Assembly (NCBI GenBank): GCA_003141555.1
Contig: PLMN01000010.1
Span: 62,001 to 126,000 of the forward strand
DNA length: 64,000 bases
Direction of reading: 5' to 3'
Origin: Candidatus Aminicenantota bacterium
GTDB taxonomy: Bacteria; Acidobacteriota; Aminicenantia; Aminicenantales; UBA4085
In this document: piece after piece, positions 51,790-62,694 of the stretch
How positions within the stretch are numbered: position 1 is the stretch's first letter
How the letters are laid out: the number at the start of each line of letters is the position of its first letter
Notes under the pieces: model-generated
Database searches by the model: none
Told to the model about the DNA's origin: nothing
Seen by the model: only the letters and a program-made list of their open reading frames with translations
Translations under genes and position numbers: made by a program

Positions 51790-53400
51790 TCAGGCGAATA
51801 TCACATACAGGGCGATCATGATCGCGATCAGGACGCCGGCCACGACGCGGTAATCGAAAACCCCCATCCATGGCCCGGCGATCGCCGAGATAGGATTTTT
51901 CCAGACCATGGCCGCGCTCTCCTCGGTGTGCTTGTGCGGGCGCCAAAGCGACACCGCCGCCATGACGGCCGAACAGATGAGGAAGAGATAGAATGTCGCC
52001 ATCATCGACGGGACATTCCAGCCCGTGCTCGCCTTGAACCAGTCGAGGAGGAATACGGCCAGCCCCAGCACCGACCCGGAGGCCAAGGTCGCTACGGCCG
52101 CCGCCGAGGAGGCCCGCCGCCAGAAAACGCCCCAGATAAAGACAGCCGTAATGGGCGGGGCGATATAGCAGATCAGGGCGGTGATGCCCTGGAAGATGCT
52201 TTGGAAATGGCTGATGAGGGGCGACCAGAGGATGGCCGCGATCATGGCCACGAAGGTCGCGATCCGGCCGACCGAGGTCAGTCTCCGGTCGGAAGCGGCC
52301 GGCCGCCAGCGCTTGTAGAGGTCGAGAGTGAACAGGGTGGAAATCGAGTTCAGCGCCCCCGACACGGTGCTCATCAGGGCGGCGAGCAGAGCGGCCGCGA
52401 CGACGCCCTTCAATCCGACCGGAAGAAGGCCGTTGATGAGGGTCGAGTAGGTATTGGCCGAATCGGTGATCGCCGGGAGCTTGCCCTGCTTGACGAGCGC
52501 GGCGGCGATTACGCCGGGCAGGACGAACAGGAAGACCGGCAGGATTTTAATGAAACCGGCGAACAGGGGGCCGAGGCGCGCGTTGCGCTCATCCTTGGCG
52601 CCCAGCACCCTTTGGACGATCGTCTGGTCCGCGCACCAATACCACAAGCCGATGACGGGATAGCCGAGCAGGACCGCATACCAGGGGAGCGAGGGCGTTT
52701 CCGCCGCCGTCCGGAGGATCGTCAGCTTCACGGGCTCCACGGAGGCGGCCATCCCGCCCCAGCCGCCGGTGTGAATCAGGCCGATGACGACCACGCACGC
52801 CGCGCCGGCGATCAGGACCACGGTCTGAACCGACTCGGTCACCACGACGGCCAGCAGCCCGCCGACGATCGTGTAAAGTCCGGTCAGGACGGCGGTCAGG
52901 CCGATGCTCCAGCCGATGTCGAATCCGAACAGCCCCTTGAGGACGACGGCCCCGGTGTACAGGGTGAAGCCGATGTGGATGAAGACGGCCGAGAAGATCG
53001 ACAGGACCGCCAGGAAGTCCCGGCTCGCCCGGCTGTAGCGCTTCTCCAGGAAATCGGGGAGCGTGGCGACGCGCGACCGGATGTAGAACGGGGCGAAGAA
53101 AAACGCCAGGATGACCAGGAGAAAAGCCGCCATCCATTCGAAGTTGCCGTAGGCCAGGCCGTTGACGTATCCCTCCTGGGCCAGGCTGACGAGGTGCGTG
53201 GTCGAGATGTTGGTCGAGAAGAGGGCCATGCCGATGACCGGCCAGGCGAGGGTATGGCCCGCCAGAAAATACGAGGCGCTCGAAGCTTCGGTCCGCCGTC
53301 GCCGGCGCCAGGCCCACAAGCCAAGGCCGACGATGCCCGCCATGTAGACGAGCATCACCGCCACGTCGGGCCAGGCCAGGCGCAGGGCTTCAGTCCGCAT
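51790..53400 (-). CDS. Sodium:solute symporter (SSS/SGLT family), 536 aa
   Basis: About 13-14 helices. Family features include SYFLAGHTLAWPVIGMALFSTNISTTHLV near residue 40-65 and GALNSISTLFTLDLYKRW, the conserved helix-8-like region with sodium-site hydroxyls. SGLT-like members take up sugars or polyols with sodium. The start at 53400 overlaps the 3' end of the mutarotase gene by 11 bases, which points to sugar import. The 51598-51789 gap downstream shows no supported gene. Confidence 0.9.
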   Translation of the reverse strand: MRTEALRLAWPDVAVMLVYMAGIVGLGLWAWRRRRRTEASSASYFLAGHTLAWPVIGMALFSTNISTTHLVSLAQEGYVNGLAYGNFEWMAAFLLVILAFFFAPFYIRSRVATLPDFLEKRYSRASRDFLAVLSIFSAVFIHIGFTLYTGAVVLKGLFGFDIGWSIGLTAVLTGLYTIVGGLLAVVVTESVQTVVLIAGAACVVVIGLIHTGGWGGMAASVEPVKLTILRTAAETPSLPWYAVLLGYPVIGLWYWCADQTIVQRVLGAKDERNARLGPLFAGFIKILPVFLFVLPGVIAAALVKQGKLPAITDSANTYSTLINGLLPVGLKGVVAAALLAALMSTVSGALNSISTLFTLDLYKRWRPAASDRRLTSVGRIATFVAMIAAILWSPLISHFQSIFQGITALICYIAPPITAVFIWGVFWRRASSAAAVATLASGSVLGLAVFLLDWFKASTGWNVPSMMATFYLFLICSAVMAAVSLWRPHKHTEESAAMVWKNPISAIAGPWMGVFDYRVVAGVLIAIMIALYVIFA

Positions 53401-53812
53401 GGAAAACTTCCCCCATCGGGCTCCACCACTCCTTGCCCTCCCGCTTCGGGATCGGGACCTGGCAGGGATCGGTTTCCTTCCACCATTTTTGGGTGACCGG
53501 ATCGGCGGCCATCCGGGCCATGTCGGCGGCGAAGTCGTCGCCCGTATATTCAAAATAGGAGAAGAGGTATAGCTTTCCGGGCTCCGCCTCCTTGAGGTAG
53601 ATGGAATAGTTGCGGATGTGGCAGGCCTTGATCATCGCCAGGACCTCGGGCCAGACCGCGGCGTGAAGCTTTTTGTACGTCTCGATCTTGTCGGGCTTCA
53701 GGCCGATGATCGAGCCATAGCGCTGGACCTTCGGTTGGGCAAGAGCCACGGCCAGGGCCATCGCGGCGATCAGGAGGGCCGCCGCTCCGAGCTTGAAGGC
53801 GGGGTTTTTCAT
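53390..53812 (-). CDS. Exported L-rhamnose mutarotase-like protein, 140 aa
   Basis: A signal peptide (about residues 1-25) precedes a RhaM-type dimeric alpha/beta-barrel: YKKLHAAVWPEV with the conserved Tyr and His, NYSIYLKE, and QKWWKETDP. RhaM interconverts anomers of L-rhamnose. The family is normally cytoplasmic and about 105 residues; export here suggests anomer conversion before uptake by the adjoining symporter. L-fucose or another 6-deoxy sugar is also possible. Confidence 0.85.
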   Translation of the reverse strand: MKNPAFKLGAAALLIAAMALAVALAQPKVQRYGSIIGLKPDKIETYKKLHAAVWPEVLAMIKACHIRNYSIYLKEAEPGKLYLFSYFEYTGDDFAADMARMAADPVTQKWWKETDPCQVPIPKREGKEWWSPMGEVFHAD

Positions 53813-53823
53813 CGCGTTTCCTC

Positions 53824-54480
53824 TCAGCTGCGCGGGCCGAAGATCAGCATCCCGAGGCGGACGCGGTTGGCGCCTTCCTCGACGGCCATGCGCCAGGAAT
53901 TGGTCATTCCCATCGACAGCCATTTCATCTCGATGCCGGGAATCCCGAGCGCGCCGATCCGGTCGAAGAGCGTCTTCGTGATCTTGAAGTAGGGCCGGGC
54001 GCTCTCCGGGGCGCCTTCGAAGGGGCCCATGGTCATCAGGCCTTCGACGCGGATGCCGGGCAGGGGAGCGATCTCCCGGATCAGCGCTTCGGCGCCGTCC
54101 GGCGCGACCCCGAACTTCTGGCCCTCCTCCCCGCTGTTGATCTCGATCAGGACGGACATGGTTTTGCCGGCCGTCCGGCAGCGCTTGTCGAGCTCGCGGG
54201 CCAGGTCCGTCGAGTCCACGGTCTCGATCGCATCGAAGATCTCGACGGCCTTCTTGGCCTTGTTGGTCTGGAGGTGGCCGATGAAGTGCCAGCGGGCTCG
54301 CTTTCCGACCGCGGCGAAAGCCTCGATCGCCTCCTGGACGTAGTTCTCGCCGATGACGCGGACGCCCGCGTCGATCGCTTCCAGGATCTCGGCCGGGGAT
54401 TTGGTCTTGGCCGCGGCGACCAGCTCGACGCCGGGCGGCAGCTCCCTTAGGATGCGGGCGACATTCTCGCGGATGGACAT
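53824..54480 (-). CDS. YggS-family pyridoxal-phosphate homeostasis protein, 218 aa
   Basis: An alanine-racemase-like barrel without the C-terminal domain. The PLP lysine is in LVAAAKTKS, with WHFIGHLQTNKAKK, INSGEEGQKFGV, GLMTMGP and LSMGMTNSW in the usual order. It buffers PLP and affects amino-acid metabolism rather than catalysing a known reaction. Start at 54480 with AAGGA, which overlaps the stop of the preceding small ORF. Confidence 0.95.
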   Translation of the reverse strand: MSIRENVARILRELPPGVELVAAAKTKSPAEILEAIDAGVRVIGENYVQEAIEAFAAVGKRARWHFIGHLQTNKAKKAVEIFDAIETVDSTDLARELDKRCRTAGKTMSVLIEINSGEEGQKFGVAPDGAEALIREIAPLPGIRVEGLMTMGPFEGAPESARPYFKITKTLFDRIGALGIPGIEMKWLSMGMTNSWRMAVEEGANRVRLGMLIFGPRS

Positions 54481-54729: not shown

Positions 54730-55761
54730 ATGCTGAACATCCGCGAGCAGTTGGAAGAGACGGAAGCCCAGATCCTGTCGCCCAAGGCCTGCCTCAGCCG
54801 CAATTCCCGGGGGCGCGAGCGCCAGGAATCGCCCCACGCCTTCCGGACGGCGTTCCAGCGCGACCGGGACCGCATCCTCCATTCCAAGTCGTTCCGCCGG
54901 CTCAAGCACAAGACCCAGGTCTTCCTGGCCCCATACGGCGACCACTACCGGACGCGCCTCACCCACACCCTCGAGGTCTCGGCCATCGGCCGGACGATCG
55001 CCAAGGCGCTCCGCCTGAATGAGGACCTGACCGAAGCCATCGCCCTCGGCCACGACATCGGCCATACGCCTTTCGGCCATTCGGGCGAAGAGACGCTGGC
55101 CAAGCTTCTCCCGGGCGGCTTCAATCATTACCTCCAGAGCCTGCGGGTCGTCGAAAAGCTCGAATACGAAGGGAAGGGCCTGAACCTGACGTTCGAAGTC
55201 CGGGACGGCATCGCCCGCCACTCCAAGGGCCGGGGCAAGATCCTCGACCGCAAGAAGGAAGATATGCCTGCCACCCTCGAGGGCCAGATCGTCCGGATCT
55301 CGGACGTGATCGGCTACGTCAACCACGACATCGACGACGCCCTGCGGGCGGGCATCATCAAGGAATCCGACATCCCCCGTCATCTCGTCGGCGTGCTCGG
55401 CCGCTGGCACGCCAGCCGGATCGACCGGATGGTCGTGGACGTCGTCGAATCCAGCCTCAAGGCGAACCTCGACCGGATCGCGATGAGCGACGAGATCATG
55501 AAGGCCGTGGTCGAGCTTCGCGATTTCCTCTATGAGCGCGTGTATTTCAATTCCGCATCCCGCGAGGAGCTGCGCAAGACCGAAAAGATCATCCGCGACC
55601 TCTTCGCCTATCTTCTGGCCCACCCCGAGGGCTACGTCAAGGATTACCCGGCGGGCGATTCCCTCGAGAAGCGAGTCGCGGACTTCATTGCCGGGTCGAC
55701 GGACCGCTACGCCCTGAAGCTCTACGAGGATATCTTCTTCCCTCACTCCTGGCGGACATAG
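54730..55761 (+). CDS. dgt: Deoxyguanosinetriphosphate triphosphohydrolase-like HD protein, 343 aa
   Basis: It cleaves dNTPs to deoxynucleoside and triphosphate. The opening segment DRDRILHSKSFRRLKHKTQVF and the HD site RLTHTLEVS with LGHDIGHTPFGHSGE are diagnostic. The third metal ligand is in ISDVIGYVNHDIDDA. The length matches short dGTPase-like proteins. A TATGAT box lies at 54690-54695; AGAGGA precedes the ATG. Confidence 0.94.
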   Translation: MLNIREQLEETEAQILSPKACLSRNSRGRERQESPHAFRTAFQRDRDRILHSKSFRRLKHKTQVFLAPYGDHYRTRLTHTLEVSAIGRTIAKALRLNEDLTEAIALGHDIGHTPFGHSGEETLAKLLPGGFNHYLQSLRVVEKLEYEGKGLNLTFEVRDGIARHSKGRGKILDRKKEDMPATLEGQIVRISDVIGYVNHDIDDALRAGIIKESDIPRHLVGVLGRWHASRIDRMVVDVVESSLKANLDRIAMSDEIMKAVVELRDFLYERVYFNSASREELRKTEKIIRDLFAYLLAHPEGYVKDYPAGDSLEKRVADFIAGSTDRYALKLYEDIFFPHSWRT

Positions 55762-55818: not shown

Positions 55819-58800
55819 ATGAAAATATCGACGGCTTCGCGGCTGAGCTTTTCGGCCTTGGCCTTGTTCCTCATCGCCCTTCCGCCGCTTTGCGCCCAGG
55901 CGCCGGCTCCCGCCCGGGTCTGGGAAGAGCCGCTCGTCATTCCGACCTATCTCGTCGGCCCCCCCGATCCGGACCCGATCTTCTTTGCCGGCCGGGCCTA
56001 TCAAGTCGCCAAGGGGCCGATCTATCCCTATCCTTTCCTCGACCGGCTGACCGACCGTAAAGTCGACAAGACCTATCGGGCGGTCTATCTCGAGAACAAA
56101 TATCTGAAGATCTGCATTCTACCGGAAATCGGGGGCCGCATCTTCTCGGCCGTCGACAAGATCAACAACTACGACTTCGTCTATCGGCAGCACGTGATCA
56201 AGCCGGCCCTGATCGGCATGCTCGGCGCCTGGATCTCGGGCGGCGTCGAGTGGAACATTCCCCATCACCACCGGGCCACGACCTTCATGGACGTGGACCA
56301 CGCGATCTCCGTCGCCCCCGACGGAAGCGCCACGGCCTGGGTGGGGGAGATCGAGCTCCGGCAACGGATGAAGTGGCTCGTCGGGCTGACCCTCCGGCCC
56401 GACCGGGCCGCGCTCGAAGTCACGATCAAGGTCATCAACCGCACCCCGCTGGCCGAGCCGATGCTCGCTTGGGCGAACGTGGCCATCCACGCGAATCCGG
56501 ACTACCAGGTCGTCTTCCCGCCCGACGTGGAGTTCGCCACGTTCCACGCCAAGAACCAGTTCTCGCGCTGGCCGATCTCGACCGAAATCTTCAACCGGCA
56601 GGATTACACGCGGGGCGTGGACGCCAGCCGGTGGGCGAGCCACGGTGCGCCGACCTCCTTTTTCGCCTGGGAAGCCCGCGGCGATTTCCTGGCCGGCTAC
56701 GACCACGGCAAGGATGCGGGCGTGGCCTTCGTCGCCGATCCGCATTTCGTCCCGGGCAAAAAGCTCTGGACATGGGGCACCGGGAACGAGGGGAAGCTCT
56801 GGGAGCGCCTCCTGACCGACACCGACGGCCCCTACGCCGAGCTCATGGTCGGCGCGTTTTCCGATAACCAGCCCGACTATAGCTGGATCCAGCCTTACGA
56901 AACGCGTTCGGTGACGCAGACCTGGTTTCCCATCCGGGGCCTCGGCGGCGTGGCCTCGGCCGGCGAGGAAGGTGCCTGCAACCTGGCCGTCGACGGCGCG
57001 CGGACGGCGCACATCGGCTTCCTCCCGACGCGGGCTCTGGAGAACGTGCGGATCGCGCTCCGGGCCGGCGGCCGGGAGATCTTCCGCGAGGTGTTCTCGG
57101 CCGGCCCCGAGCGGCCGTTCAAGAAGGACGTGGCGCTTTCGCCCGAAGACGCGAAGGATGATCTGTCGCTCGCCGTCGCGGCCGCGGACGGCCGCGAAAT
57201 CCTCTCCTATGCCGTCCCGAAGCCGAGCGGACGATCGTTGCCCCAGGTTGTGGCGGCGCCTCCCGCGCCGAAGGACATTCCCACGATCGAGGAGCTTTAC
57301 CTGACCGGCCTGCGCCTCGACCAGCTCTTCAATCCGGCGTTCGAGCCCTATCCGTATTATGAGGAAGCACTCCGGCGCGATCCGGGCGACTACCGGGCCA
57401 ACACGGCCTTGGGCCTGCTGTATCTCAAAAGGTGCATGTTCAAGGAGGCCGAAAACCGCTTCCGGACGGCCGTCGAGCGGGCCACCCGGAATTATATCCG
57501 GCCCAAGGACGGAGAAGCCCAATACTATCTCGGGATTGCCTTGCGGGCCCTCGGCCGGGAGCGGGAGGCCGAAGACGCCCTCTTTCAGTCGGCGTGGAGC
57601 TCGGCCTGGCGATCGGCCGGCCTCCTTCAATGCGCCGAGCTCGCGGCCCTGCGCGGCGACCACGCCCGGGCTCTCGATCTCGCGCGGCGCTCGCTCGAAA
57701 TGAACACCCTCGATCCCAAAGCGCTCGGGCTCGTCGCGTCCTTGTCGCGGCGGGGCAAAAGCTTCGATGACGCCAGAGCGGCAGCCGATAAAGCGCTGGC
57801 CGTCGATCCGCTCGATGCTCGGGCCCTCTACGAGCTCTATCTGCTCGAGGCCGGGGGCGGCTCGCGCGGGGACGCAGGACCGGCTCTTGCGAAGTGGCAA
57901 GCGGTGATGCGCGGGGCGGAGCCGAATGCCCTGGAGCTTGCCGCCGACTACGGCGCCGGCGGTCTTTGGGATGAGGCCATCGGCGTTATAGACCATTTTG
58001 CCGGCCCGACGGCGGGCGGCGCGCCTCAGCCGGCCCTTCTCCGCTATTTCCTGGCTTATTATCTGGATAAGAAAGGGGATGCGGCGAGATCCGCGGACGA
58101 GCTCGCCCGGGCCGCGGCCCTGCCGGCCGATTACGTCTTTCCGTTCCAGTCGGAATGCCTGAACGTCCTGGCCTGGGCGCAAAGCCGGAATCCCAAGGAC
58201 GCCCATGTCCCTTATTTCCTGGGGAACTTTCTGTTCGACATGCAGCCGGAGGCGGCCCTCGAGGCGTGGCGGACGTCCGTGGCCCTCGACGGCGGCTTCC
58301 CCGTCGCTCTCCGCAACCTCGGCTTGGCCCTCGCCCGGGTCAGAAACGACGTGCCGGGCGCCGCGGCGCTCTACGAGAAGGCCCTGGCTGCGAATCCGAA
58401 GGACCCGCGGCTTTACATCGAATATGACCAAATCCAAGAGACGGCGCACGTCGCGCCCGAAAAGCGGCTGGCCCTGCTCGAACGGAACCGGGACGTCGTC
58501 GCCCAGCTCGACGATACTCTCATTCGCCTTGTCCAGCTGCTTGTCCAAACGGGCCGCTATGACGATGCGATCGGGACCATGGCCACCCACCATTTCCATG
58601 TGTGGGAGGGAGGCGGCGGGATCCACGGGCTCTTCGTCGATGCCCATCTCCTGCGCGGCCAGAAATCCCTCGATGGGGGCGACGCCCGGTCCGCCTTGAA
58701 AGATTTTGAAGCAGCCGCGACATATCCGGCCAACCTCGACGTCGCCGAACCCCGGACCGGCGGTGTTTCGCCGAAGATCCAGGCTCTCATCGACCGGGCT

Positions 58801-60147
58801 AAACAAGCGCTCGACCGCGGGCCTGAAACGACCGCCGCGGCGGGCGCGGCCGATCCGAACCGCTATTACCGGGAGGCCGCCGACATCGCGAAATGGCTGG
58901 ACGGGGCGGCGATCAAAACCCCGGCCGGGCTGGCCTGGCCGTCCGACCCTCGCGATCCCAAGACAGTCGATACGACGCTCTATGCCGGGACGCCGGGCGT
59001 CGTTCTGTTCTATCTCGAGGCCGACGCCGCCGCGAAATATTTCGGGAAGGCGGCGCCCGCTCCGGGCGCGTTTCTCCAAAAGGCGCGCGGCGGAGCCGAC
59101 GAGCTGCTCGCCCGGATCTCGGGCGAATCGGGGACGGGGCTCTACGAAGGGCTGGGCGGCATCGGATTCGTCCTTGAAGAGACATACAAAGCCACGCGCG
59201 AGGCGAAATACCGGAAAGGCTTCCTGGATTGCTTCGGGGCCATCGCCGCGAAGGCCGTGAACAAAGGCAAGGGCGTCGAATGGGGCCCGGTCACGGATAT
59301 CATCAGCGGGAGCGCCGGGACCGGCCTCGCCCTGCTCTACGCGTTCAAGGAAACGGGGGACAGGCGCTGGCTCGATCTGGCATCGCGGGCCGGCGACCGC
59401 CTTCTCGAGCTCGGGACGTCCAAGAACGGCGGGCTCGACTGGGCCATGGACCCGACGAATCCCCGCCTCTATCCCAATTTTTCGCACGGCACGGCCGGCG
59501 TCGCCTTCTTCCTCGCCCGCCTCTCCGAGGCGACGGGCAGGAAGCCCTATCTGGACGCGGCGCTCGCCGGGGCCAAATACCTTCTTTCGATCGCCAAGAC
59601 GGACGGCGACGCCTGCCTCATCTACCACGACGAGCCCGACGGCAAGAACCTCTATTATCTCGGTTGGTGTCACGGACCGGTGGGCACGTCCAATCTGTTC
59701 TACGCGTTGTTCAAGATCACGGGCGATAAAACGTGGATGGACTGGGTGGCCAGGTCCGCGCGCGGACTCATGGACAGCGGCATCCCCGAGAAGGAGACCC
59801 CCGGTTTCTGGAACAACGACGGGATCTGCTGCGGCCTGGCCGGAGTGTCGGATTTCTTCCGCGGGCTGGCCAAAGTCGCTAAAAGCGCGGATTATTCCGC
59901 CTTCGGCTTGCGGGCGGTGGACCGGCTGAGGGCGAAGGCCACTTCGGACGCGGCCGGCCTGCGCTGGATCCAGGCGGAACACCGCGTCCGGCCCGATCTT
60001 CTGATCGCCCAGACCGGGATGATGCAGGGGGCGGCTGGCATCGGCCTCGTCCTGCTCCGCTGGGCGGCGGACGGCCGGCCGGGCGCAGAGGGCGCCGGGA
60101 TCGCCGCTCGCGCGCCCCGGATCGTGATGCCGGATTCGGCGTTTTAA
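55819..60147 (+). CDS. Exported DUF5107-TPR-LanC-like fusion protein, 1442 aa
   Basis: Signal peptide (to about 26), a DUF5107 domain (about 40-390; mutarotase-like beta-sandwich, with LPEIGGRIFSAVDKI and GGVEWNIPHHHRATTF), a tetratricopeptide region (about 490-1000) and a C-terminal LanC-like alpha-toroid (about 1020-1425). The toroid shows repeated GxxG helices: YEGLGGIGF, ISGSAGTGL, NFSHGTAGVAFF, GWCHGPVGTSN (C1284), GICCGLAGVS (C1337-C1338) and GMMQGAAGIG. LanC cyclases bind zinc through Cys, Cys and His of CHG; here CHG has become CCG. DUF5107-TPR proteins are known; the added LanC-like domain is unusual. Function unknown; the GRE operon follows 54 bases later. Confidence 0.88.
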   Translation: MKISTASRLSFSALALFLIALPPLCAQAPAPARVWEEPLVIPTYLVGPPDPDPIFFAGRAYQVAKGPIYPYPFLDRLTDRKVDKTYRAVYLENKYLKICILPEIGGRIFSAVDKINNYDFVYRQHVIKPALIGMLGAWISGGVEWNIPHHHRATTFMDVDHAISVAPDGSATAWVGEIELRQRMKWLVGLTLRPDRAALEVTIKVINRTPLAEPMLAWANVAIHANPDYQVVFPPDVEFATFHAKNQFSRWPISTEIFNRQDYTRGVDASRWASHGAPTSFFAWEARGDFLAGYDHGKDAGVAFVADPHFVPGKKLWTWGTGNEGKLWERLLTDTDGPYAELMVGAFSDNQPDYSWIQPYETRSVTQTWFPIRGLGGVASAGEEGACNLAVDGARTAHIGFLPTRALENVRIALRAGGREIFREVFSAGPERPFKKDVALSPEDAKDDLSLAVAAADGREILSYAVPKPSGRSLPQVVAAPPAPKDIPTIEELYLTGLRLDQLFNPAFEPYPYYEEALRRDPGDYRANTALGLLYLKRCMFKEAENRFRTAVERATRNYIRPKDGEAQYYLGIALRALGREREAEDALFQSAWSSAWRSAGLLQCAELAALRGDHARALDLARRSLEMNTLDPKALGLVASLSRRGKSFDDARAAADKALAVDPLDARALYELYLLEAGGGSRGDAGPALAKWQAVMRGAEPNALELAADYGAGGLWDEAIGVIDHFAGPTAGGAPQPALLRYFLAYYLDKKGDAARSADELARAAALPADYVFPFQSECLNVLAWAQSRNPKDAHVPYFLGNFLFDMQPEAALEAWRTSVALDGGFPVALRNLGLALARVRNDVPGAAALYEKALAANPKDPRLYIEYDQIQETAHVAPEKRLALLERNRDVVAQLDDTLIRLVQLLVQTGRYDDAIGTMATHHFHVWEGGGGIHGLFVDAHLLRGQKSLDGGDARSALKDFEAAATYPANLDVAEPRTGGVSPKIQALIDRAKQALDRGPETTAAAGAADPNRYYREAADIAKWLDGAAIKTPAGLAWPSDPRDPKTVDTTLYAGTPGVVLFYLEADAAAKYFGKAAPAPGAFLQKARGGADELLARISGESGTGLYEGLGGIGFVLEETYKATREAKYRKGFLDCFGAIAAKAVNKGKGVEWGPVTDIISGSAGTGLALLYAFKETGDRRWLDLASRAGDRLLELGTSKNGGLDWAMDPTNPRLYPNFSHGTAGVAFFLARLSEATGRKPYLDAALAGAKYLLSIAKTDGDACLIYHDEPDGKNLYYLGWCHGPVGTSNLFYALFKITGDKTWMDWVARSARGLMDSGIPEKETPGFWNNDGICCGLAGVSDFFRGLAKVAKSADYSAFGLRAVDRLRAKATSDAAGLRWIQAEHRVRPDLLIAQTGMMQGAAGIGLVLLRWAADGRPGAEGAGIAARAPRIVMPDSAF

Positions 60148-60201: not shown

Positions 60202-62694
60202 ATGCAGAAGAGAGCGGATTCATCCTTTGCGGCGCGCGAAGTCGTGGGACAACCCAGCGGAGAACGAACGGCGTTTCTCAAAAACCGCTATCTCGAAGCG
60301 CCGCTCATGCTCGACATCGAGTATATCCGCCACCTCACCGAGTCCCATCAAGGCACCGATGGAATGGAAATCCTCGAGCGCCGCGCCGAGAACCACGCCC
60401 ACGCTCTGGAACGGCTGACGCCCGTGATTCACGCCCGCGATCGCATCGTCGGCAACAAGACCCGTTTCATCCGGGGCGCGGTCCCGTACGCGAACTACGC
60501 GGCCGGACCGTTTCTCCGCGAGATGCGCCAGCAGGAGCAGGACGCACAGCAGAAGCACATCGACCAGGGCCGCGGCGGCGGCATCGCCGAGGCCCTCAAG
60601 ACCGCCCGGGCCAAGGGCTACGAAGTCTTTTCCGGCAAATTCCTGGTCTCCCCCGAGGACGGTCGGGAGTTCCGGGCGATCTGCGAATACTGGGAAGACA
60701 AGTGCTTCATGGAGGTCGGCGACCGCCTGTGGAAGAGGGAGTTCCCCCAGGCCCAACTCATCCAGGACGGCTGGACGATCGGCCTCTACAGCGCGCCTCA
60801 TGATCCCTGCCCGGAAGGGCGGCTGGTCCTCGACTTCGAGATGGCGCTGGCCAAGGGCTACGAGGCCATCCTCGCCGAGATCGAGGAGAAGATTGCGGGT
60901 CTCCGGCCCGGGGCGATCGCCGAGGCCGACAAGCTCCACTTCTGGCGCGCCGCCCGTCGGGTCCTGCAGGGCGCGCTCGCCCACGCGGCCCGCTACGCCG
61001 AAGAAGCCGAACGGCTCGCCCGCGAGGAGAAGGATCCCTCCCGCAAGGCCGAGCTCGAGGCCATCGCCGCCGCCTGCCGCCGCGTCCCCGCCAAGCCGCC
61101 GCGGAATTTTCGCGAAGCGATCCAGTCCTACTGGTTCACTTACGTGCTCGGTCATCTCGAAGGCTCCCACCTCGGCTACTCGCCGGGCCGTCTCGATCGG
61201 ACGCTCCTCCCTTACTTCGAAGCCGATCCGAGAATCACCTTCGATGAGGCCGTCGAGCTCTTCGAGGAGCTGTTCGTCAAGATGACCCAGATCGAGTACA
61301 TCGCCTCGCTTTCGTGGCAGGGGCTCGGGCACGGCAATCTCTTCCAGAACTGCATCCTGGGCGGCGTCGACGGCGGCGGGAAGCCGGCCGACAACCGGCT
61401 CTCGCTGGCCATCCTCCAGGCCCAGATCAACATGCAGATGACCCAGCCGACCCTGTCGGTGTGGTACGACGAGTCCTCCTCCGAGGCGTTCCTCCTCAAG
61501 GCCGCCGAGTGCGTCAAGACCGGCGTCGGCTACCCGGCCTTCTTCAACCAGAAGACGTACGTCGAGCACGAGCGCAAGACTTCGGGACTGCCGCTCGAGG
61601 TCATCCGCGAGCATGCGGCGATGGGCGGCTGCACCGAACCGGTGCTCGGCGGGCTGTCATACGGCGTCGTCCAACCCGGATTCGTCAACCACGGCAAGCT
61701 CCTCGACCTGGTGCTCGCCGACGGCCTCGATCCGAACACGGGCCTCCGCCTCTTCGAGCCGCGCGAGCCCGGCAGCTATGTGGAGATCGTCGAGTCCTAT
61801 CGGGACAAGATGCACCAGGCCGTGCGCGCCTGGCAGCAATACTGGAACTACGTCATGGCGGCCCACCGTCAGACCGTGCCCCTGATGTTCTGTTCGGTGT
61901 TCGTCCGGGACTGCCTGGGGCGGGGCGCCTGCATGGATGACGGCGGCGCGATCCTCAACCAGACGCCGACGACCCTCTCCTCAGGCCTGGTCAACGTCGC
62001 CAATTCGCTGGCCGCGATCCGCCAACTCTGTTTCGAGGAAGGAGCCTGCTCCTACGCGGAGCTGAAGAAGGCCGTCGCCGCCGACTGGCAAGGGTATGAT
62101 GGGCTCCGCCGCCTGGCCCTCGACGCGCCCAAATGGGGCAACGACGACGATCGCGTCGACGGGATCTTCCTCGATCTTTTCGCCGACTACTGCGCATGGG
62201 TGCGCGGCCAGGACAACTATCTCGGCAAGCCCTACGACCCGTCGATGCTGGCGATTTCGACGCCGGTGCCGTTCGGCAAGGCTTGCGCCGCGCATCCCGA
62301 CGGCCGTCTCGCCGGCCAGCCGCTGGCCGACGGCGTCACCTCGCCCTTCCCGGGCACCGACATCGACGGTCCGACCGCCGTGATCCGCTCGTCGTCCAAG
62401 GTCGACCATACCCAGATCCGGGGCGGCCTCTTGAACCTCAAGTTCCACCCGACCGCCCTGACCGGCGAGCGGGGCTCGCGGAACCTGCTCGCGCTGATCA
62501 AGACCTATTTCGAAAAGCCCGGCTTCCACGTCCAGTTCAACGTCGTCGACTCCGACATGCTGCGCGACGCCCAGGCCCGCCCCGAGCTCTACCGCGACCT
62601 GGTCGTCCGCGTCGCCGGCTTCTCCGCTTATTGGGTCGAGATGTCGAAGCCCTTGCAGGATCAGGTCATCGGGCGCACGGAGCATTGTCTGTGA
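60202..62694 (+). CDS. Glycyl radical enzyme (pyruvate formate-lyase-like), 830 aa
   Basis: A ten-stranded GRE barrel with the thiyl-radical cysteine C477 and paired E479 in MGGCTEPVLGG, and the glycyl-radical loop RVAGFSAYW with G806 near the C-terminus. Length and opening match the diol-dehydratase/decarboxylase branch, not pyruvate formate-lyase itself, whose active site has adjacent cysteines. GCTEP differs from the GCVEP of choline lyase and glycerol dehydratase, so the substrate is not assigned. Oxygen-sensitive, hence anaerobic. No Shine-Dalgarno sequence precedes the ATG. Its activase overlaps the stop. Confidence 0.93.
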   Translation: MQKRADSSFAAREVVGQPSGERTAFLKNRYLEAPLMLDIEYIRHLTESHQGTDGMEILERRAENHAHALERLTPVIHARDRIVGNKTRFIRGAVPYANYAAGPFLREMRQQEQDAQQKHIDQGRGGGIAEALKTARAKGYEVFSGKFLVSPEDGREFRAICEYWEDKCFMEVGDRLWKREFPQAQLIQDGWTIGLYSAPHDPCPEGRLVLDFEMALAKGYEAILAEIEEKIAGLRPGAIAEADKLHFWRAARRVLQGALAHAARYAEEAERLAREEKDPSRKAELEAIAAACRRVPAKPPRNFREAIQSYWFTYVLGHLEGSHLGYSPGRLDRTLLPYFEADPRITFDEAVELFEELFVKMTQIEYIASLSWQGLGHGNLFQNCILGGVDGGGKPADNRLSLAILQAQINMQMTQPTLSVWYDESSSEAFLLKAAECVKTGVGYPAFFNQKTYVEHERKTSGLPLEVIREHAAMGGCTEPVLGGLSYGVVQPGFVNHGKLLDLVLADGLDPNTGLRLFEPREPGSYVEIVESYRDKMHQAVRAWQQYWNYVMAAHRQTVPLMFCSVFVRDCLGRGACMDDGGAILNQTPTTLSSGLVNVANSLAAIRQLCFEEGACSYAELKKAVAADWQGYDGLRRLALDAPKWGNDDDRVDGIFLDLFADYCAWVRGQDNYLGKPYDPSMLAISTPVPFGKACAAHPDGRLAGQPLADGVTSPFPGTDIDGPTAVIRSSSKVDHTQIRGGLLNLKFHPTALTGERGSRNLLALIKTYFEKPGFHVQFNVVDSDMLRDAQARPELYRDLVVRVAGFSAYWVEMSKPLQDQVIGRTEHCL

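Follow-up and report, generated by a model that had tools for sequence, protein, structure and literature searches.

An exported family of LanC-type domains and its fusion to a DUF5107-TPR protein in Candidatus Aminicenantota

The LanC-type enzymes known so far work in the cytoplasm, either as lanthipeptide cyclases or as LanCL proteins which add glutathione to damaged proteins. What such a domain might do outside the cytoplasm is the question raised by a gene in a 64,000-nucleotide stretch of a Candidatus Aminicenantota genome (assembly GCA_003141555.1, contig PLMN01000010.1, positions 62,001 to 126,000 of the forward strand), hereafter the window. The gene, open over 1442 codons and carrying GGAGG a few bases ahead of its ATG, encodes a protein in which a Sec-type signal, a DUF5107 domain, a TPR region and a LanC domain follow one another according to Pfam. 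A reading made from the letters of the sequence (the sequence-only reading) had already described this 1442-residue exported architecture, and the reading frame, the Pfam domains and the N-terminus as judged by eye (MKISTASRLSFSALALFLIALPPLCAQA) agree with it.

The answer towards which we lean slightly is that the domain belongs to an exported branch of LanC proteins carrying out a thiol/zinc reaction unrelated to lanthipeptides, which would be either the first extracytoplasmic thioether system or new chemistry on this fold. What is new is the relocation of LanC-type enzymes beyond the cytoplasm in a broad and strictly conserved family; the CCG site which they carry was already known.

Fold, spread and export of the LanC domain

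The Pfam LANC_like match (PF05147; residues 1050-1418, E=1e-36) scores 126.7 bits where the curated cut-off is 23.2, and no second LanC domain is present in the 3.79 Mb genome of the window. The AlphaFold2 (AF2) model, built from a 62-member family alignment (predicted local distance difference test, pLDDT, 94.8; predicted template-modelling score, pTM, 0.94), is a toroid of 14 helices in seven pairs. In a Foldseek comparison with the Protein Data Bank (PDB), ranks 1-20 were occupied exclusively by LanC, LanCL and lanthionine synthetase structures (CuvL, MadC, LicM2, LanCL1, LanCL2, ThurKC, GCR2 and NisC), the best template-modelling (TM) score being 0.71, with LanCL2. From rank 21 there followed mannanases of glycoside hydrolase family 76 (GH76; TM about 0.5), then enzymes of the N-acylglucosamine 2-epimerase type and of GH88/GH105. 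Profile comparison of the family with 22 canonical LanC domains (hhalign) aligned 341 columns at E=2.9e-49, CCG falling on CHG. Since LanC-type structures outrank the other toroids considered (GH76, N-acylglucosamine epimerase, GH88) and the cysteines are invariant in relatives, the LanC assignment of the sequence-only reading survives: the C-terminal domain is a true LanC-superfamily enzyme and, to judge from its residues, probably a catalytically active one. GH76, which had given a weak Pfam match, was rejected, its structures ranking under those of LanC.

Relatives of the domain were sought with two seed motifs in 84,980 species-level genomes, one genome per species, and are encoded at 167 stretches. 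The best 80 of these, from which taxa, export and loci are described here, come from Aminicenantes, other Acidobacteriota, Planctomycetota, Gemmatimonadota, Bacteroidota, Armatimonadota and one Binatia genome; the named relatives of highest identity belong to Candidatus Aminicenantes. Ten further genomes of the window genome's order have relatives at 51-65% identity, the full-length ones being stand-alone proteins. A tree of 22 family members and 22 canonical LanC domains recovered the family as a single group (support 100/100). Two genes of the set are irregular (L145 8001-9095 and L154 4517-5987), one lacking about 40 internal profile positions and the other being split by a frameshift.

Export-type N-termini, scored on motifs and hydropathy, were found in 78 of the 80 family genes, with a strong hydrophobic segment and in some cases a lipobox, which departs from the cytoplasmic location expected of a biosynthetic LanC. 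As a control, seven stand-alone canonical LanCs of the phylum scored 0.4-1.65, versus 2.7-3.6 for three family members. A twin-arginine motif resembling that of the twin-arginine translocation (Tat) pathway, e.g. TRRSFL, occurs in about 25 of the 80, nearly all from Gemmatimonadota (the script's Tat class numbered 29, including a few false positives by eye); such a signal would suit a protein which folds with its metal ahead of export. The extracytoplasmic placement proposed by the sequence-only reading is thereby supported. No exported or Tat-dependent LanC was found in the literature, which is weak evidence as subscription journals lay outside its coverage. As a rule the LanC domain is a separate exported protein, one of a widespread and apparently undescribed family, a point absent from the sequence-only reading.

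Conserved residues and the candidate reaction

Conservation was counted in the alignment of 62 family members and compared with the 22 canonical LanC domains. H1223, C1284, H1285, C1337 and C1338 are each present in 62/62 members and D1160 in 59/62; SHG and WCHG served as search seeds, so that their conservation is partly built in, which does not apply to CCG, E1387, R1389 and Q1398. The three cysteines which the sequence-only reading had singled out, C1284 in GWCHG and C1337-C1338 in ICCG, are therefore both correctly placed and invariant among relatives. The trio of metal ligands (Cys, Cys, His/Cys) and the acid histidine are complete in C1284, C1337, C1338 and H1223, the last having its counterpart in 22/22 canonical domains. 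In LanCL1, the enolate is stabilised by His277, the residue after the WC cysteine, and protonated by the acid histidine, with zinc activating the thiolate (PMC9934072).

The CHG of LanCL is not kept, CCG being found in every family member. That CCG constitutes a new metal site, as had been suggested, is rejected: a trio of cysteines as zinc ligands is what defines the ProcM clade (PMC13060382, PMC10027976), CCC cyclases are a named group described as more reactive (PMC11251773), and LanMs bearing CCG exist in the phylum of the window genome itself. The family shares with ProcM-clade LanMs the three-cysteine ligand set and WCHG, but is exported and has no DUF4135 dehydratase domain. Moreover, the CCG-type LanMs in the tree, which were drawn from this phylum with ProcM itself left out, form their own group (100/99) apart from the exported family; as the two are separate clades, CCG has probably arisen twice, or else the root lies between them. 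The best Foldseek match, CuvL (PDB 8car; E=3.4e-10), likewise reads QCCG in its cyclase domain in the profile alignment; it is, however, a trifunctional multidomain lanthipeptide synthetase (in annotation, a Ser/Thr protein kinase) of about 20% identity, unlike the stand-alone, exported family. The eukaryotic, glutathione-adding LanCL1 and LanCL2 resemble the family in the toroid (TM 0.64-0.71), in the acid histidine, in WCHG with a histidine at the H277 position, in being stand-alone as most relatives are, and in the lack of a dehydratase partner; they differ from it in that the family is exported, has CCG for CHG, shares only 16-19% identity with them and has its own Glu, Arg and Gln.

These latter residues, E1387, R1389 and Q1398, are present in 62/62 members and in 1, 0 and 0 of the 22 canonical domains. 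H1270, Y1280, P1287 and W1331 likewise vary little or not at all within the family and are almost never seen in canonical LanC. To judge from the predicted secondary structure, the family-specific residues lie in hairpins that connect outer with inner helices, the metal motifs being carried by the same face. The metal pocket is LanC-like, but its substrate side is rebuilt.

The account which we put forward, with confidence no better than even, is that of a separate exported LanC clade acting as zinc-thiolate enzymes outside the cytoplasm, whose fusion partner in the window came from the same locus. C1284, C1337 and C1338 would be the likely zinc ligands, H1223 the acid, and H1285 would occupy the enolate-stabilising position. 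The metal would bind a thiol and activate it as thiolate, which in turn would attack an electron-poor acceptor, alpha,beta-unsaturated or resembling a dehydroamino acid, lodged in a pocket on the top face, rebuilt by H1270, Y1280, W1331, E1387, R1389 and Q1398. In the fused chain, the DUF5107-TPR part would probably serve for binding or as a scaffold.

Several points weigh against this account. The zinc, the thiol chemistry and the substrate are inferred; neither a source of dehydroamino acids in the hosts nor an extracytoplasmic thiol partner is known; export was scored from hydropathy and motifs; and the fusion comes from one metagenome-assembled genome (MAG). Furthermore, a pyridoxal phosphate (PLP) decarboxylase which recurs beside the family genes has no obvious fit to thia-Michael addition on proteins, and the Glu, Arg, Gln and aromatic residues specific to the family could serve a different reaction.

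The last point is the core of the leading alternative, which we regard as possible, though not probable: an exported zinc-thiolate enzyme with the LanC toroid, whose substrate would be a small molecule or a sugar and whose reaction would be new (lyase, hydrolase or transferase). A cysteine or the zinc might act directly, with E1387, R1389 and Q1398 as catalytic residues, on the model of the Cys3-Glu zinc site of the GH127 (PF07944) beta-L-arabinofuranosidases. The invariance within the family of these three and of Y1280 and W1331, all but absent from canonical LanC, favours such a reaction, as do the mutarotase-like fold of the DUF5107 partner, the lack of LanB/LanM dehydratases in most hosts and the decarboxylase (both below). 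GH127 enzymes also hold an adjacent cysteine pair, a further cysteine and a glutamate in a helical toroid; in their alignment E294, C296, C363 and C364 are invariant, and this set is a zinc site. Nevertheless, the family retains the full LanC set for acid, metal and enolate, while GH76 is the weaker fold match and GH127 is neither a homologue nor a match: hhalign aligned only 70 columns, and no GH127 structure is among the top 50 PDB matches of Foldseek. Homology with GH127 was rejected on these grounds and the comparison kept as an analogy. GH127 (DUF1680) matches occur in the window genome (eight, including L190 and L204) and in all 11 relatives of its family.

That the domain is a binding or structural module which keeps the fold and has lost catalysis is very improbable, given metal and acid positions strictly invariant across several phyla in the main family. 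It draws its support from two divergent outgroup relatives, L187 and L188 (in G251 and G291), which score about 250 bits against the family profile and lack WCHG and CCG; they may represent a branch devoid of the metal site.

Host genomes, gene neighbours and the substrate

Of the LANTHIPEPTIDE machinery, neither DUF4135 nor LanB-type dehydratases were found in 20 of 22 family-bearing genomes, the exceptions being G376 (DUF4135 and LanB-type) and G019 (LanB-like). The window genome has neither, in agreement with the absence of such machinery nearby that the sequence-only reading had noted. In the account put forward above, classical lanthipeptides are not what the domain makes. That it is a lanthipeptide cyclase which is exported and works on a secreted precursor, dehydrated by an unrecognised dehydratase, is very improbable; every LanC catalytic position is indeed retained, and CCG cyclases accept many substrates (PMC10027976), but this reading is at odds with the dehydratase counts just given and with the window genome, which has no other LanC domain and hence no LanL or LanKC. 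Nor does a precursor-like neighbour recur at the family loci, where genes below 70 residues were not called.

Neighbourhoods were clustered from the output of a compositional gene caller, immediate neighbours being annotated in samples. The main recurrent neighbour is a PF00282 PLP decarboxylase directly downstream of the LanC gene in 16 loci (L125-L131, L134, L135, L137, L140, L141, L143, L145, L149 and L106), 15 of them labelled Gemmatimonadota or Longimicrobiales and one Planctomycetota. The two genes overlap by 4-7 bases in 11 of the 16 and probably form one transcription unit. Among NCBIfam decarboxylases of known substrate, the decarboxylase has no match. Other neighbours recur almost solely in the same Gemmatimonadota cluster: an amidohydrolase with beta-propeller repeats, a DUF2784 protein and a permease. 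Outside it the neighbours differ from locus to locus.

A conserved exported clade, nearly all of whose tested hosts are without known dehydratases, implies that thioether chemistry takes place outside the cytoplasm or else that the LanC fold has a second function. The role of LanC-like proteins outside lanthipeptide synthesis thus becomes testable on the stand-alone members, of about 45 kDa.

Fusion with DUF5107-TPR and the surrounding genes

The N-terminal half resembles BDI_1685 (PF17128, PDB 5cd6), in which DUF5107 is followed by helical repeats, and which has no LanC domain. The DUF5107 match in Pfam (E=3.3e-58) is joined by a sequence match to 5cd6 (E=2.3e-23) and by an AF2 model (pLDDT 84) for which Foldseek ranked 5cd6 first, then galactose mutarotases. 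Most genomes of the order (74 of 94) carry an unfused DUF5107-TPR relative, as one of two paralogues; the closest run about 120 residues, with extra TPRs, beyond the point where the fusion enters LanC. In one relative (L086, G003:C163), DUF5107 leads straight into mid-TPR, so that some 260 internal residues seem to have been deleted. The profile search for further DUF5107-LanC fusions proposed by the sequence-only reading yielded relatives of each half but no second fusion in 94 genomes of the order or 396 of the phylum, the window genome excepted.

Synteny suggests how the halves came together. In G007 (L214) the order is PLPBP (-), dGTPase (+), DUF5107-TPR (+), transketolase (+), the last named from a reading of its sequence; in the Aminicenantes MAG of L093 it is PLPBP (-), dGTPase (+), LanC (+), transketolase (+); and in the window PLPBP (-), dGTPase (+), fusion (+), glycyl radical enzyme. 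As both halves occupy the same dGTPase-linked slot in different relatives, two genes of one locus appear to have fused. An ancestral locus would have held the DUF5107-TPR and LanC genes side by side, relatives would have lost one or the other, and in this genome a deletion would have joined them, removing the last TPRs and the LanC signal. The side-by-side step is conjectural, since no genome was found with the two genes adjacent and unfused.

That the fusion is an artefact of assembly, with two ordinary genes in reality, might be suspected of an arrangement known from one MAG. Synteny makes a chimera unlikely, and with GC content and GC content at third codon positions (GC3) even across the junction, a frame open through an Ala/Gly/Pro-rich linker, and a contig of 222 kb, we consider it exceedingly so. 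The fusion took place once and late, and no DUF5107 neighbour recurs beside the stand-alone relatives; the glycan substrate which the sequence-only reading had drawn from DUF5107 is for these reasons unsupported beyond the fold of that domain.

Table 1. Coordinates of the fusion gene, its parts and its conserved neighbours in the window
Feature	Position	Strand	Basis
DUF5107-TPR-LanC fusion protein, 1442 residues	55819..60147	+	
Putative Sec-type signal peptide, residues 1-26, cleavage near LCA-QA	55819..55896	+	by eye from sequence
DUF5107 domain, residues 67-372, galactose-mutarotase-like beta-sandwich	56017..56934	+	Pfam, 5cd6 match, AF2, Foldseek
TPR region, about residues 508-994	57340..58800	+	
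Fusion junction and linker, about residues 995-1014 (KQALDRGPETTAAAGAADPN)	58801..58860	+	
LanC-like toroid, exported CCG family, residues 1010-1442	58846..60144	+	Pfam, AF2, Foldseek, hhalign, tree
H1223 of SHGTAG, counterpart of catalytic acid (NisC H212 / LanCL1 H219)	59485..59487	+	conservation; role from PMC9934072
C1284-H1285 of WCHG, putative zinc ligand and enolate-stabilising position (LanCL1 H277)	59668..59673	+	conservation; role from PMC9934072
C1337-C1338 of CCG, presumed zinc ligands two and three	59827..59832	+	conservation
E1387, R1389, Q1398, family-specific invariant, last top-face hairpin	59977..60012	+	conservation; AF2 secondary structure
dGTPase-like HD gene, conserved upstream neighbour fixing synteny	54730..55761	+	synteny
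PLP-binding-protein (YggS-type) gene, conserved divergent neighbour	53824..54480	-	synteny

Downstream of the fusion, the gene at 60202-62694 (+) encodes a glycyl radical enzyme with PFL-like and glycine radical domains. Its best NCBIfam model is indoleacetate decarboxylase, at 735 bits against a cut-off of 1100, and it is probably a relative of the arylacetate decarboxylases; a frame resembling a radical S-adenosylmethionine (radical-SAM) activase follows and extends to 63632. On the other side, at 51790-53812 (-), a sodium:solute symporter adjoins a gene resembling L-rhamnose mutarotase, whose N-terminus looks like a signal.

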